A stretch of 64,000 nucleotides of DNA from a virus: the IMG/VR virus record IMGVR_UViG_3300042516_002489, positions 1 through 64,000 of that record; one strand, 5' to 3'. Below are positions 3,830 to 42,885 of the stretch, in pieces. The notes under the pieces were generated by a model. That model was not told where the DNA came from and did not search any database. It saw only the letters and a list, made by a program, of their open reading frames with translations. The first letter of the stretch is position 1; each line of letters begins with the position of its first letter. A program made the translations under genes and the position numbers.

Positions 3830-6800
3830 TTAGACAGGTGTGATAGTAAAACTAGACCATGAAGAGTCTCTATATATCTTAATTTTGTCTGGAAGGAACG
3901 TCATTCCGTCTCCATCATCAATAATTATCTTATTAGTTCCAATATAAGTCTTATAAACATCTGATGGATTTACACCATAAAGGCTGGATGAAGACAACAC
4001 CAGCATTCCTTCCCAATTAAAATTTTCATTCCAGTACTGCCAATAAAGATCTGTGCCTTCATCATCCTTTACATCTGCCCAAGGCCTTGTAAGTTGCTTT
4101 TGTATTTGTTGAAGACTATTTGCCTGATAGTAAGAAACATTATTAAATACTCCTGGACCGTTAAGGTTAATGCCACCAATAAAATTATTAAAATCTAGGG
4201 TATTGGCAAATCCTATTCCAAGAACAGACCACTCTTTAATCGTTATAACTGGCTCTCTAACAATATTTCCATTTATATAATAAGATAATCCATTAAAGGC
4301 TTCTCCTGTGTTATCATTAATGGCATAAACTTTTGCCCTTTTCCCCGCATTGTCTATCGCCATTGTATAGAATTTTATTAGGTTGCCCTTATAGTTTATT
4401 TCAAAAAACTGAGTTGGAGTACCTGAAAAAATATCAAGATCATATCTATACCATAATTGTACGGCACTTACCTGATAGGCATCTGCTAGTTGTTTATTGA
4501 CTGGAATGTTTATTCCACGATCAATGGTTGAACTAAAGTCTCCACGAACCTCAATTCCAGAATCTCTTGTCATATACAAGTACGGGGTACTGCCTTTATA
4601 AATGCTAAATGGATTTTTAGATTTATAATCGTAGTATATTCCAGATTTTTTGTAAGGAAAAATGTCTATGCCAAATCTAGTTCCAATAGGGTTAAACGAG
4701 TTATTGTTGAGTGCTTGAGATATTAAACTTAGCCTTCTTAGAGATATTGGTTTTGTTAATATATTTCTTGAACTAAACTCAAGATGATAGACAACTGCTA
4801 ATTCATTAAAGTCAACTGTATTTATTGGATAAATTATTGTTCCATCTACAACCTCAAACTTTGTGCTTGGCCAATTAGGATATTCAGAAATATCAAGAAC
4901 TCTGCCTTCTCTTGCTTTTTGTATTGTTGTAAAAGAATTTTTAAGTGCGTTTGCGCCTTCTTTAATATACTGAAAGGTTATATAACTTTTAATTTCTGAA
5001 TCTGTTGTATCGTATTCATAATACTTATTTGATTTTTGTGCTAGATCTTCATAATCATTAAACCCAGAATATAAAAAATTGTCTAGTTCTGAATAGGGCC
5101 TTTGTATTGGGCTTAGGTATTCTTGGTATAAATCACCATATGTCCAGTTTTCAGTGACCAATTCTTTTTCTAATAGTTTTGATGGTGCTGGATATCCAAT
5201 ATTAAATTGTAAAAAATCTAAATCATAGTATTCGTTGCCTACGTCGTTTTTGACATATTGTCCAAAATAAGAAAGTGGTAGGTAGTCTTCCCAATAAGAT
5301 GCTGTCCCAATGTCTAGCAAAAACTTACCATATGCCACAGTTGGCAAAAGTGTGTAACTTGCGGTATGTGCCAGAAGTTCTTCTGCGTCTTCAATTTTAG
5401 CAGTACCGTTTAAATTAAAGTGTTCCAAAAGATTATCTAAATTTAAACTAGAGCAGGCTCCAACTGAATAAATCTTTCCAAAAAATGTATTGCTTGTCGT
5501 TTCATCTCCTCCAACATACATCTTTAGACCATTTAAATTTCCAAAAAAAGCAGCAACATTTCCACCAAAAGTATTAACTAGGTCATCAAACTTTATTCCA
5601 ATTCCAAGTAACGTATTCAATGAAAAATTAGGGATTGAGTAAAACTCTTCTTCTATACCATTAAATGTTAAGTAATAGTCTATTTTTGCCCCATCTTTTT
5701 TAATTGTAAAAAAGTTTCCAGTTAGATTGTTATATATTTTAAATAGTGTTTGTACTGAAGTATTTTCGGATATCTTAAAAACACCATATATGGCATGAAT
5801 CTGATCATTTAAAATGTCAAATCTTGGAAAATTTATATATGCTCCCTGATTAGCCCAAGAGTCGTTAGGTTTTAAAGTAATAAAATTATTTGTTTCCGAT
5901 TGAAGTGAAAGGTTGTCGTCATATAAATCTTGAAGTGTTTTTGAGTTAGTAAAAATTTCTGGTAAAGAATAGGCTGGTGTTTCTAACGAGTTTTGAGTTG
6001 TTACTAGGTTATCAAAGGTGCCCTGTTGCCATTCTGCAAAATCTGGATAAGAGTAGTTTGCTGTGTAGTCTGCAAATGGATAATCAATAAATGCAGAAGA
6101 TCCTCCATAAGAAGAGTTGATCCCTTCTGGAGAAAGTACTCCTTGACCATAAACCCATCTTCTTTTTGCAACTGTGATTGGTACTTGATAGTGATAAATT
6201 GCAACACAATCAATTTCAATTGGCGTAACATTTTCTGTAGAATAGAAACCAAGCCAATCTTGTGATTTTCCATTTTGATCTATAACAGATGGCAGGTCTA
6301 AATCTTTTGTAATAAAATTTATGCTTATAACTTGTTCACCATTTAAAAGAAGCGTTGCAGAATTTCTTAATATTCTTATATCAAAAAGCATTGGCCTATA
6401 CCATTCTCCAACAAAGTGAGACCTAAATATATTTCCAATTTTTAATGTTAAAAACCCTTTTTCAACATATAGCCCATCTGTAGAAGAAATAGGTCCAAAT
6501 ATTCTTGAAGGGGTTATGGAGTCAGAGTTAATTCTTGCCCAAAACTCTATTGTGTATTCTTTGTGTCTTCCTGCTTCATTTAAAAATCCTTGGCCTGGAA
6601 CGATCACTGATGGTAAATTATTTTGGTTAGGCCTTAATTTGGTAACACCAGATGCACCATAGACTAACGGTATCGTTGTATTTCTTGCAACCAGGCTATT
6701 TTTATTTACTAGGTAGTATCCAGATTTGTCAGATAGACCGTAGGCTTTTGCCTCTAACGCATATGTTTCTGAAAGGGCTATGTCCGAAGGAAGTAGTTCT

Positions 6801-9486: not shown

Positions 9487-9546
9487 TTATATATACCTTT
9501 CAAAGTAAAATTAGATGAGTACTTCTTAATTTACGAAGTAGTCTTA

Positions 9547-21035: not shown

Positions 21036-21042
21036 ATCATTG

Positions 21043-21051
21043 ATTATACCA
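21043..21051 (-). promoter_or_regulatory. Extended -10 (TGGTATAAT) heading the fibre operon
   Basis: The -10 hexamer ends 7 nt before the ATG at 21035, giving a leaderless or nearly leaderless transcript. Confidence 0.6.
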
Positions 21052-21060
21052 TAAAATAAG

Positions 21061-21109
21061 GCTAGACACCCAAGCGCAGTGGGGTGGGGGTAGCAACTTG
21101 GGTGCTAGC
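21061..21109 (-). terminator. Long-stem hairpin, probable terminator
   Basis: GCTAG-A-CACCCAAG pairs with CTTGGGTG-CTAGC: 13 bp with one bulge and a 22-nt G-rich loop. On the minus strand TTATTTTA follows. It would end leftward transcription from the holin-like gene before the fibre operon promoter. The long loop is unusual. Confidence 0.55.
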
Positions 21110-21345
21110 ATTAAGATTATATCTGATTATTTTAAAAAAGAGCCAGAGTATACGATGATTATAACAAATAGTTATACAATTAATATTGTTATAAAAGAGT
21201 TATAAATAGATATATACCATATGTCCGTTTTATCTGTATTGTCCAGAGTATTGATAGTGTATACTTAAAATATATAAAGAAAAGAATATACTGTAAAAAG
21301 GTTTTTAGATATTAAGTATATTATATATAAGGAAAAAGGAAAACT
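21110..21345. other. AT-rich non-coding stretch
   Basis: Together with the hairpin this forms a gene gap of about 310 nt between two leftward genes. It is extremely AT-rich with many TATA-like words. No convincing gene or clear promoter was found. Messenger leader, spacer or a melting region are all possible. Confidence 0.4.
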
Positions 21346-23234: not shown

Positions 23235-23365
23235 TTTTGGACTTCCTTTCTTTTAGGGGCTTACTTCTTTTTCAACCTTCTATATATAGAAGTATAACAG
23301 AGGGGTACGACATTTACTGACCAGTAATGCCACAAATCGGACATTTTGAAATGTGATGTAGGTCA

Positions 23366-23415
23366 TGTGGATAACTCACGCTCAATTCTGGGTGTGATGT
23401 GCGTCATGTGGATAA
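23366..23415 (-). repeat. Two DnaA-box-like sites in direct repeats
   Basis: TTATCCACA on the minus strand at 23366-23374 and 23407-23415, inside a repeated 25-nt unit spaced 41 nt. Perfect matches to TTATNCACA. Confidence 0.5.
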
Positions 23416-23489
23416 CTTTGCGCCCCGGCGCACTCGGGCGTGTCTGATCTTATGTGGTACGAATCACATGCGACACGCCGTGTTTAGAT

Positions 23490-23518
23490 TTGACTTTTTG
23501 ATATTTTTGTGCTATACT
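23490..23518 (+). promoter_or_regulatory. Sigma70 promoter of the first rightward microgene operon
   Basis: TTGACT, 17 nt, TATACT with an extended TGC before the -10. It has the best -35/-10 pair of the region. About 210 nt of leader precede the first gene. Confidence 0.75.
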
Positions 23519-23727
23519 TCTCGTATAGAAAAAAATAAAATAGTGTAATAAATCAGGTCAATGAGCCTAGCAAGTAAACCTCTACTAGAGGGTGAGCCTA
23601 GCAAATAAGTGACCTATATCACAAGTCCCACGCTCCACATAGTGAGACTACCAGCCAGTATACTGTACAGTACGAGATTTTTCTGTTACACTTACATAGT
23701 AAGAAAATAAAAAAGAAAGGGGTTCTA

Positions 23728-36605: not shown

Positions 36606-36930
36606 TCCCTGCCCTTCGGGGCCGGAGTCTATATCATAGAAAACCATCTATGTCAAACCACATTTCCTAAAAACTTATTACGATAGGGCTATTTTTTTCC
36701 CAGATCCATAGACAAACCTTCAAACCTTATTTCCAAAAAAACATTACGAACCCTAAAAAACTTTTCCCCGTACCAAACCTTATTTCCCAAACCATCAAAC
36801 CAGATATAAAGGTTTGGTATTGTATCTTATACTACTGACATTACGATCATTCTTATTTATCCCCCGATCTAAGGCTGTTTACTAAGCCTATCAAACATTG
36901 TAGAACGGTTTGTAGATGGTACAATAGAAT
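36606..36930. other. Gene-free stretch with CAAACC and ATTACGA repeats
   Basis: 325 nt, AT-rich. Starts with a GCCC-TTCG-GGGC hairpin (36611-36622). Then six CAAACC (36654, 36713, 36721, 36774, 36788, 36796) and two GGTTTG (36811, 36907), plus ATTACGA at 36677, 36743 and 36840. The promoter TTGTAG, 16 nt, TACAAT (36898-36925) ends 5 nt before the next ATG. Confidence 0.65.
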
Positions 36931-37611
36931 ATGGGGAAAAAACAAATCATTCAATTTGAGTCAGTGCATTCAGCACATCCCAATGTAATGATTCCCGCAA
37001 AAAGTTTAGTTCCTAAATGGTTTAAAGATGAAAAACTACTAACACCACCAGAAACAACTTTTAAAAATTGTGTACCTTTTTTGGACTCTTTAATATCTGG
37101 ATATCTGGTAACACTGCCTGTAGACATTCTTGTAACACAACAAGATGGTCATCCAATTATTAACTGGAGACAGTCTAATGATGGTTTGACAATGGTTGGT
37201 TTTAGACTTAATGAATCTATAGACAGGATCCCAACCCCGCATGGGTATCATAAGGATTCTTTCTATTGGCACTTTCCAGTATCATTTAAACTACCCATAG
37301 GGTACAGCGCTTTGTTGACGCAACCAATAAACAGGTTTGATCTTCCATTTCAATCTCTTTCTATAGTCTTGGATGGTGGATATACCCTTGTTCCAGAAGC
37401 CCGTGTCACTTTCTTTATTCGTGAGGGGTTTGAAGGTATCATTCCACAAGGTACTCCGATACTTCAGATCATACCATTTAAAAACGAAGAGTGGGTTGCT
37501 AAAGATACACCAGGTATAGTTGCTGAAGGGCAAAAGAGTAAGGTGCTCTCAAACTCTGTATATGTAGGCTGGTATAAAAAAACATGGTGGGCTAAAAAAA
37601 ATTACAACTAA
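36931..37611 (+). CDS. Conserved phage protein, three-member family, paralogue B
   Basis: 226 residues. Blocks SLVPKWFKDE, NCVPFLDSLISGYLVTLPVD, PIINWRQSNDG, PHGYHKDSFYWHFP, REGFEGIIPQGTPILQIIPF align with 15505-16206 and 42166-42885. It sits between two repeat arrays of the candidate origin. The ATG is 5 nt after TACAAT, so a leaderless mRNA is predicted. Function unknown. Confidence 0.8.
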   Translation: MGKKQIIQFESVHSAHPNVMIPAKSLVPKWFKDEKLLTPPETTFKNCVPFLDSLISGYLVTLPVDILVTQQDGHPIINWRQSNDGLTMVGFRLNESIDRIPTPHGYHKDSFYWHFPVSFKLPIGYSALLTQPINRFDLPFQSLSIVLDGGYTLVPEARVTFFIREGFEGIIPQGTPILQIIPFKNEEWVAKDTPGIVAEGQKSKVLSNSVYVGWYKKTWWAKKNYN

Positions 37612-37819
37612 CTAACAGAATAAGGACATTACGATCCCAGGGGATCTAGCGGGGGATTACGAATGATACCAAATTCCCCTAGCATAATACACACTAAATA
37701 GACAAACCTTTTTTCCTGGTTTTCTAGAAATTATCAAACCTTTTATATATTTTTTCCTGGTTTTTCCTAGATTTTCTGGACATTTTGCTACATTTTGTAG
37801 AGGGTTTTTAGGCTATAAA

Positions 37820-37907
37820 GGTTTGACAAATAGGAGGTTTGGGGGTATAATGTGAGGTTTGGGAATGTGAGGTTTGACATATGAAGGTTTGTGTGATAGG
37901 AGGTTTG
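37820..37907 (-). repeat. Array of six iteron-like GGTTTG repeats
   Basis: GGTTTG at 37820, 37836, 37856, 37871, 37886 and 37902, spaced 16, 20, 15, 15 and 16 nt. Most read RAGGTTTG (AGGAGGTTTGG, TGAGGTTTGGG, TGAGGTTTGAC). Confidence 0.7.
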
Positions 37908-38011
37908 GCCCCTTAGACATTACGACCCCATCTGTCTAAATGCTCAATGCTCCCTTTCTCTCCACTTTCCTCCACTAAAAGAATATCTAAAAAATATCAG
38001 TAAGATTTATC

Positions 38012-38087
38012 TGTGGATAAACCTGTGGATAACTATGTTATATAGCCGTTATCAAACCAGAAATATCAAACCTTTGCCTGTGGATAA
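38012..38087 (-). repeat. Three DnaA boxes (TTATCCACA)
   Basis: Perfect TTATCCACA on the minus strand at 38012-38020, 38024-38032 and 38079-38087. The first two are 12 nt apart, about one helix turn. Confidence 0.65.
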
Positions 38088-38124
38088 CTCGTAGAGTTAC
38101 TCTGATAAACTATCAAACCAGTAG

Positions 38125-38130
38125 TATAAT
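38125..38130 (+). promoter_or_regulatory. -10 box (TATAAT) for a leaderless gene
   Basis: TATAAT ends 6 nt before the ATG at 38137. No ribosome site lies between. Confidence 0.5.
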
Positions 38131-38136
38131 CAACCT

Positions 38137-38244
38137 ATGGACCTAGCAACATTATTCATTTATTGGATATACGGAATGATCGGATTATCAGGTTTGCTAA
38201 TGCTTTGGGCTATTAAAGAGTGTATTTTCCCAGGGGATAAGTAA
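38137..38244 (+). CDS. Membrane microprotein
   Basis: 35 residues with one or two short membrane segments (LFIYWIYGMIGLSGLLMLWA), then IKECIFPGDK. Leaderless start predicted. Confidence 0.5.
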   Translation: MDLATLFIYWIYGMIGLSGLLMLWAIKECIFPGDK

Positions 38245-41946: not shown

Positions 41947-42182
41947 ATAGTTGGATTGAAGAACTAGACGAAGACAAAAAGAAAGATTTAATGGAAATGA
42001 TTATAATGACTGTTAAAGAGATTCGTGAACAGATGGATCAGGACATTCTTTTTACTCAGCAAATATGGGAACGTAAAGGTTTTCTGAAAAGCCGTAGGAC
42101 TCGTAAAGCGTTTGAAGCATGTCGCTCAATTGTTCAGGGAAAAAACGAAATATTTAAGGATAATGATGAAAAACAAGATTAA
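41943..42182 (+). CDS. Helical charged protein
   Basis: 79 residues, ATGA overlap upstream, GGAG before. Charged helices (EELDEDKKKDLMEMIIMTVK, KSRRTRKAFEACRSIVQGKN). Function unknown. Confidence 0.66.
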   Translation: MNSWIEELDEDKKKDLMEMIIMTVKEIREQMDQDILFTQQIWERKGFLKSRRTRKAFEACRSIVQGKNEIFKDNDEKQD

Positions 42183-42885
42183 GTTTACTGCTATGAATAA
42201 GTTTGACTATGATATTCAACTAAAGCCATATCCAGCATCTACAAATATTCCAAGTTGGTGGAGAGATGAACTGCCCTACACTGTAAGTGAGTCAAACCCA
42301 ACTGGGAAAAAAATAATCGTTGAAAATTCAACTTCTAATGCAACATTTAAAAAATGCACACCAATGCTTGATGCTATAACATCAGGCTACATAATTCCAT
42401 TATGGACAGATGTTCAGGTAAGAATAGTTGATGGTGAACCAGTCATTACTTGGAGAACACAAAGACAGGTATTTTTAAAACATGGAGAGGCCTCCGAAAG
42501 AGTGGTTCCTCCAACTGGATACTCAAACCATGTTTTTAAATATTTAAATACATGGATGCCAAAAACTCCAAATGGTTATTCTGTTTTGGTAACCTCACCA
42601 TTTGGACATAGAAATTTACCTCTTCAAGCAATTCCTGCTATTATAGACTCAGATAGGTCAACACTAGACATTGTTCCTCCTATGTGGCTAAAAGATGGTT
42701 TTGAGGGAATAATTGAAAAAGGAACCCCAATGATTCAAATAACTCCATTTAAAAGAGAAAACTGGGAATCGGAATGTGACTATTTAGAATATGGAGAATT
42801 TGAAAAAAATCAAGAAAAAAACTTTAACTCAACTTTAATAAACCATTACATAAAAAATGTATGGTCAAAAAAAAGTTATAAGTGA
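42166..42885 (+). CDS. Conserved phage protein, three-member family, paralogue C
   Basis: 239 residues from ATG 42166 (AAGG 6 nt upstream). Blocks ASTNIPSWWRDELPY, KCTPMLDAITSGYIIPLWTD, PVITWRTQRQ, WMPKTPNGYSVLVTSP and FEGIIEKGTPMIQITPFKRE align with 15505-16206 and 36931-37611. Closest in layout to paralogue A. Function unknown. Confidence 0.8.
   Translation: MKNKIKFTAMNKFDYDIQLKPYPASTNIPSWWRDELPYTVSESNPTGKKIIVENSTSNATFKKCTPMLDAITSGYIIPLWTDVQVRIVDGEPVITWRTQRQVFLKHGEASERVVPPTGYSNHVFKYLNTWMPKTPNGYSVLVTSPFGHRNLPLQAIPAIIDSDRSTLDIVPPMWLKDGFEGIIEKGTPMIQITPFKRENWESECDYLEYGEFEKNQEKNFNSTLINHYIKNVWSKKSYK

Follow-up and report, generated by a model that had tools for sequence, protein, structure and literature searches.

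Does the array of short repeats and DnaA boxes in this stretch of phage DNA mark the place where the phage starts its replication? Little is known about where large phages that encode a DnaB-type helicase and a DnaE polymerase begin to replicate, and how the helicase is loaded when there is no known initiator. The array described here is a compact conserved candidate, and since close relatives exist with and without the boxes, dependence on DnaA is testable by comparison. If the array were an origin, it would tie phage replication to the DnaA state of the host.

The phage and its relatives

The stretch analysed (the window) covers 64.0 kb out of a 64.5 kb IMG/VR record and is part of a phage genome of roughly 112-119 kb. 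Relatives reach up to 118,981 bp, and for two of them the overlap is that of circularly permuted sequences. No DNA similarity to cultured phages was found. Among cultured phages, the Stanwilliamsviridae of Streptomyces are closest, with 46-47 % identity of the portal protein and 52-53 % identity of the DUF932 protein. The window phage is a freshwater relative of this group, and its host is therefore likely to be an actinobacterium.

Related phages were collected via DUF932 and a pyrimidine-dimer glycosylase. We recovered 84 loci having g36339 or g36122 as neighbouring gene, of which 61 are non-redundant. A contig that had been assigned to a Chitinophagaceae bin (L308) shows the array and gene order of the phage family as well; it is probably phage DNA placed in the wrong bin. 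Scanning genomes for the tandem-box pattern gave matches in many unrelated bacteria and was useful only for loci such as L280.

Layout of the array

Coordinates below refer to the + strand unless stated. Arm 1 (36606..36930) contains no genes and carries six CAAACC (36654, 36713, 36721, 36774, 36788, 36796), two GGTTTG (36811, 36907) and three ATTACGA words. It is separated from arm 2 by a phrog_7084 gene of 226 aa (36931..37611), which has a paralogue at 42112-42885. The upstream part of arm 2 (37612..37819) contains two ATTACGA, two CAAACC (37703, 37735) and a T-rich tract ahead of a promoter. Further downstream lie six GGTTTG iterons (37820..37907) starting at 37820, 37836, 37856, 37871, 37886 and 37902, that is in steps of 16, 20, 15, 15 and 16 nt. 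Within the iterons sits a perfect sigma-70 promoter, TTGACA-17-TATAAT (37823..37851, 12/12 match), which faces the AT tract and the boxes. The following ATTACGA (37919..37925) is located about 94 nt ahead of the first DnaA box, and three CTCC(A/C)(C/T) words (37950..37975) repeat with a period of exactly 10 bp (-62/-52/-42 from box 1). A conserved AT-rich tract (37983..38011), a candidate unwinding element, extends right up to box 1. Two perfect DnaA boxes TTATCCACA stand in tandem 12 nt apart (38012..38032, - strand), and a third perfect box (38079..38087, - strand) has the same orientation. On the + strand they read TGTGGATAA at 38012, 38024 and 38079, so that three perfect boxes lie within 76 nt. 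Three CAAACC words (38053, 38067, 38114) surround box 3 (38053..38119).

The arms (851 nt) contain 19 CAAACC/GGTTTG words, whereas 1000 dinucleotide shuffles gave 0.58 (maximum 4). ATTACGA occurs six times in the arms, always on the + strand, and 0.08 times in the shuffles. The whole 64 kb window has five perfect DnaA boxes against 0.8 expected. Two-copy direct and inverted repeats in the array were mostly chance overlaps of short words. Recounting reproduced all the numbers and coordinates of repeats and DnaA boxes given in the initial annotation. That annotation had missed the promoter inside the iterons, the CTCCAC words at 10-bp steps, a run of NTN triplets beside the box pair, and the perfect boxes at 23366 and 23407. 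Its picture of two gene-free arms flanking one gene is accurate for the window but does not extend to the relatives: phrog_7084 is an insertion seen only in this phage, and in nearly all relatives the array is a single continuous gene-free stretch of about 0.55-1.0 kb.

The phrog_7084 gene has a TACAAT about 6 nt ahead of its ATG, and a TATAAT (38125-38130) precedes a tiny ORF at 38138. As the -10 box lies only 6-7 nt before the ATG, the ORFs at 36931 and 38138 are both probably leaderless.

Conservation among relatives

The array follows the same gene in 61/61 non-redundant relatives, and all of them keep the CAAACC and ATTACGA words. The initial annotation had asked whether related phages lose the array while keeping the flanking genes; none of the relatives does, as all 61 have both. 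The elements are conserved in fixed order, spacing and orientation. The distance between ATTACGA and the first DnaA box is preserved, the CTCCAC words are found at -64/-54/-44 from box 1 in most relatives, and a promoter of the form TTGACN-17-TANNNT is present in 43 of the 44 relatives having the box pair. The mean identity of the 95-nt core to the window is 79 %, compared with 52 % for the flanking gene, and the core value was the higher one in 42/42 comparisons.

A perfect DnaA box was found in 52 of the 61 relatives and a close tandem pair in 44. Altogether, 160 of 161 boxes point one way and a single box is opposite, as expected where box orientation matters. The remaining nine relatives have no perfect box, yet they retain the AT tract and iterons, and most of them have a CAAACC near the usual position of the box. 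DnaA thus cannot be essential in all relatives, and the AT tract is not retained only for DnaA.

Similarity to the bacterial unwinding module

In the unwinding module of bacterial origins (BUS), a short spacer separates tandem DnaA boxes from three or more N-A-N triplets; the module is recognised by a DnaA box with up to 2 mismatches and, no further than 16 bp away, a minimum of three N-A-N trios on the proper strand (PMC8287927). At the level of sequence, the window contains a candidate for such a module, with perfect boxes, a 5-nt spacer and six NTN triplets. Read on the - strand from box 1, it is TTATCCACA-GATAA-ATC-TTA-CTG-ATA-TTT-TTT.

In the 44 relatives with the box pair, which are not independent because the phage sequences are homologous, the NTN run beside box 1 is always in one phase and has a mean of 6.4; shuffles gave 2.5, and the opposite side of the pair 2.3. 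The mean at 200 other boxes of the same phages was 1.96. The middle position of the triplet is T in 95 % of cases, compared with 39 % and 22 % in the other phases. With respect to the trio consensus 3'-[G/A]A[T/A]-5', the middle base fits in 95 % of cells while the outer bases often do not; the triplets are degenerate. The duplex of the AT tract is moderately weak, ranking only among the weakest 2.7 % of the window.

Genuine CTACTACTA trios of cellular loci and the run in the phage array are on the same side of TTATCCACA. In a freshwater actinobacterium from Lake Erken, whose oriC has the elements in the order seen in the phage, a tandem pair of boxes at 12 nt immediately precedes dnaA, and TTATCCACA-GTATCCACA-GCGC-CTACTACTACGACTAC lies between dnaA and dnaN (both genes were named by sequence and order, not by family search). 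The array shares with the BUS of bacterial oriC the tandem TTATCCACA boxes, the short spacer, the N-T-N run and the orientation seen in the cellular examples. It differs in being located in a phage, in having triplets that are not CTA/TTA throughout, and in the absence of boxes from 9/61 relatives. In B. subtilis, incC is inactive once box #6 or #6/7 is reversed (PMC6669920).

Tandem TGTGGATAA pairs at 12 nt after a shared ATCCCCAGC were also seen in the genomes of Tsukamurella and other actinobacteria (L273, L274, L305, L306, L325, L337). Beside the pair in L337, no dnaA was recognised.

Replication genes and search for an initiator

The genome of one relative (G001) encodes a DnaB-like helicase, a DnaG-like primase, SSB, a DnaE-type polymerase and a RecA-like protein, and DnaB_C is present in 12/12 genomes. 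The same relative also encodes a cytochrome P450 (L250:573-1736; Pfam p450, E 7.5e-57).

Several types of initiation could be dismissed. A phage-encoded DnaA was rejected, as DnaA domain IV was not found in the phage family, and a plasmid-type Rep_3 initiator was absent in 13 records. Among the early and neighbouring proteins tested as iteron-binding initiators, we found no HTH or initiator family. We also considered a structured RNA or an RNA-primed origin, a model known from cluster A mycobacterial prophages (PMC7157519); it was rejected, with a fold z-score of -0.14 (for one sequence) and no Rfam match. Host DnaA may fill the missing initiator role.

The array as a putative origin of replication

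We favour, with about even confidence, the interpretation that the array is an iteron-containing, DnaA-assisted origin of theta-type replication. Protein binding, unwinding and initiation at the array, as we infer them, would involve several steps. A phage protein would bind the CAAACC/GGTTTG iterons, and the built-in promoter would transcribe through the AT tract and loosen it. Host DnaA on the tandem boxes would extend along the trio-like tract and open it, and would help to load the phage-encoded DnaB-type helicase.

The proposal of an origin, already made in the initial annotation, gains from the relatives, which keep the array with its flanking genes, and from the trio-like tract. The core being better conserved than the flanking gene, the uniform direction of the boxes, the likeness to the actinobacterial oriC and the replication genes of the phage family also speak for it. 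It is weakened by the nine box-less relatives, by the negative search for an initiator, by the degenerate triplets and the only moderately weak duplex of the AT tract, by boxes in other early promoter regions, by the two live rival explanations discussed below, and by the GC skew, which the initial annotation had suggested as a check: there is no extremum or turn at the array, and the extrema near 21-23 kb and 50 kb track switches of the gene strand.

As for iteron-type origins, directly repeated sites are represented by the six GGTTTG, which are enriched over shuffles and could be candidate initiator sites, and the conserved tract 37983-38011 is a predicted AT-rich unwinding element next to iterons and boxes. 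A gene for a cognate Rep initiator was not detected next to the array, neither as Rep_3 in the 13 records nor among the neighbours tested. Because no initiator gene was found, we do not assign the array to iteron-type origins and suggest only that it may work similarly. The oriR of P1 has a promoter within its iterons, as does the phage array. Like the iteron-plasmid origins with DnaA boxes (P1, F, RK2), the array gathers iterons, an AT-rich element and DnaA boxes within about 300 nt (PMC4980987). In contrast to these origins, it has no adjacent or detected Rep gene, its iteron word is conserved over only 6 nt, and CTCCAC at 10-bp steps is an extra third repeat.

A broader and more tentative scenario, which we regard as possible rather than probable, is that a widespread family of freshwater actinobacterial phages, which encodes a replisome of its own, has a copy of the unwinding module of the host oriC, at which host DnaA and a phage iteron-binder would load the phage helicase for lytic replication. 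Some lineages would since have swapped the DnaA boxes for CAAACC sites and would now be DnaA-independent.

Alternative explanations

Instead of starting replication, the array could be a hub of early transcription, in which a phage regulator acts on CAAACC/GGTTTG around a very strong early promoter, and DnaA activates or represses the downstream leaderless promoters. The perfect promoter inside the iterons, with its -35 overlapped by GGTTTG, is in line with this, and in several relatives (L182, L198, L241) a TTGACA-17-TATNNT promoter immediately ahead of an ATG has box 3 in its spacer. Boxes are also found about 150 nt upstream of DUF932 in relatives and in the divergent early promoter region, beside CRP/GlxR-like palindromes, and DnaA is a known transcription factor (PMC8203912). 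We nevertheless consider a purely transcriptional role unlikely: a promoter would need nothing nearly as large or as rigidly spaced as the array, some 150 nt separate the tandem pair from the main promoter upstream of it, the trio-like tract is a feature of the array alone, and no conserved gene lies on the transcript ahead of the tiny ORFs. It is highly improbable that the boxes are a decoy which titrates host DnaA and blocks initiation at the host chromosome. Several perfect boxes are indeed concentrated in early non-coding DNA, but each genome has at most about a dozen of them, and a decoy would need neither the fixed single orientation nor the adjoining trio-like tract.

The other explanation to be weighed places the array at the end of a long direct terminal repeat, where concatemers would be cut and packaged or where injection would stop in a two-step process like that of T5. 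At the left genome end of the Streptomyces phages Paradiddles, Navo and Bmoc, relatives whose ends have been sequenced, the first ~0.9 kb are gene-free, lie downstream of DUF932 and carry 4-5 WTTACGA in the same orientation relative to DUF932 as in the window, and in Paradiddles this stretch opens a terminal repeat of ~10.8 kb that holds DUF932. The position of the array fits this location, but the Streptomyces relatives have neither CAAACC iterons nor DnaA boxes. Repeats and DnaA boxes have been named as features of the T5 injection stop region (PMC13250531). The annotated T5 signal is at the repeat end and has a perfect DnaA box at 9510, while the boxes at 6121/6194 lie in the divergent pre-early promoter region, comparable to 38012 and 23366/23407 in the window. 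The two regions share large non-coding repeats near early genes, a perfect box and more boxes in a divergent early promoter region; the repeats themselves are different and T5 is an unrelated phage. Ten of 13 contigs >90 kb end within 21 kb of the array region, although hypervariable regions can also cluster contig ends. Two DUF932 copies would be the proof of a terminal repeat; since no contig of the phage family has two, and no repeat is visible in its contigs, a terminal repeat is not shown for the family, and we find this explanation rather improbable. Functions in replication origin, transcription and genome end are compatible with one another and need not exclude each other.

Other non-coding regions

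The two additional perfect DnaA boxes of the window lie in a 41-nt direct repeat (23366..23415, - strand) in the divergent early promoter region. This region (23235-23727) also has a CRP/GlxR-like palindrome (TGTGGTACGAATCACA) and a TTGACT-17-TATACT sequence, and similar CRP-like sites occur in relatives. In another gene-free region, 21036-21345, situated at a strand switch near the GC-skew minimum, the duplex is weaker than anywhere else in the window (50-mer at 21166). In the Streptomyces phages, WTTACGA is clustered almost only at the left genome end (L258:1-877, L381:1-893, L382:1-936).
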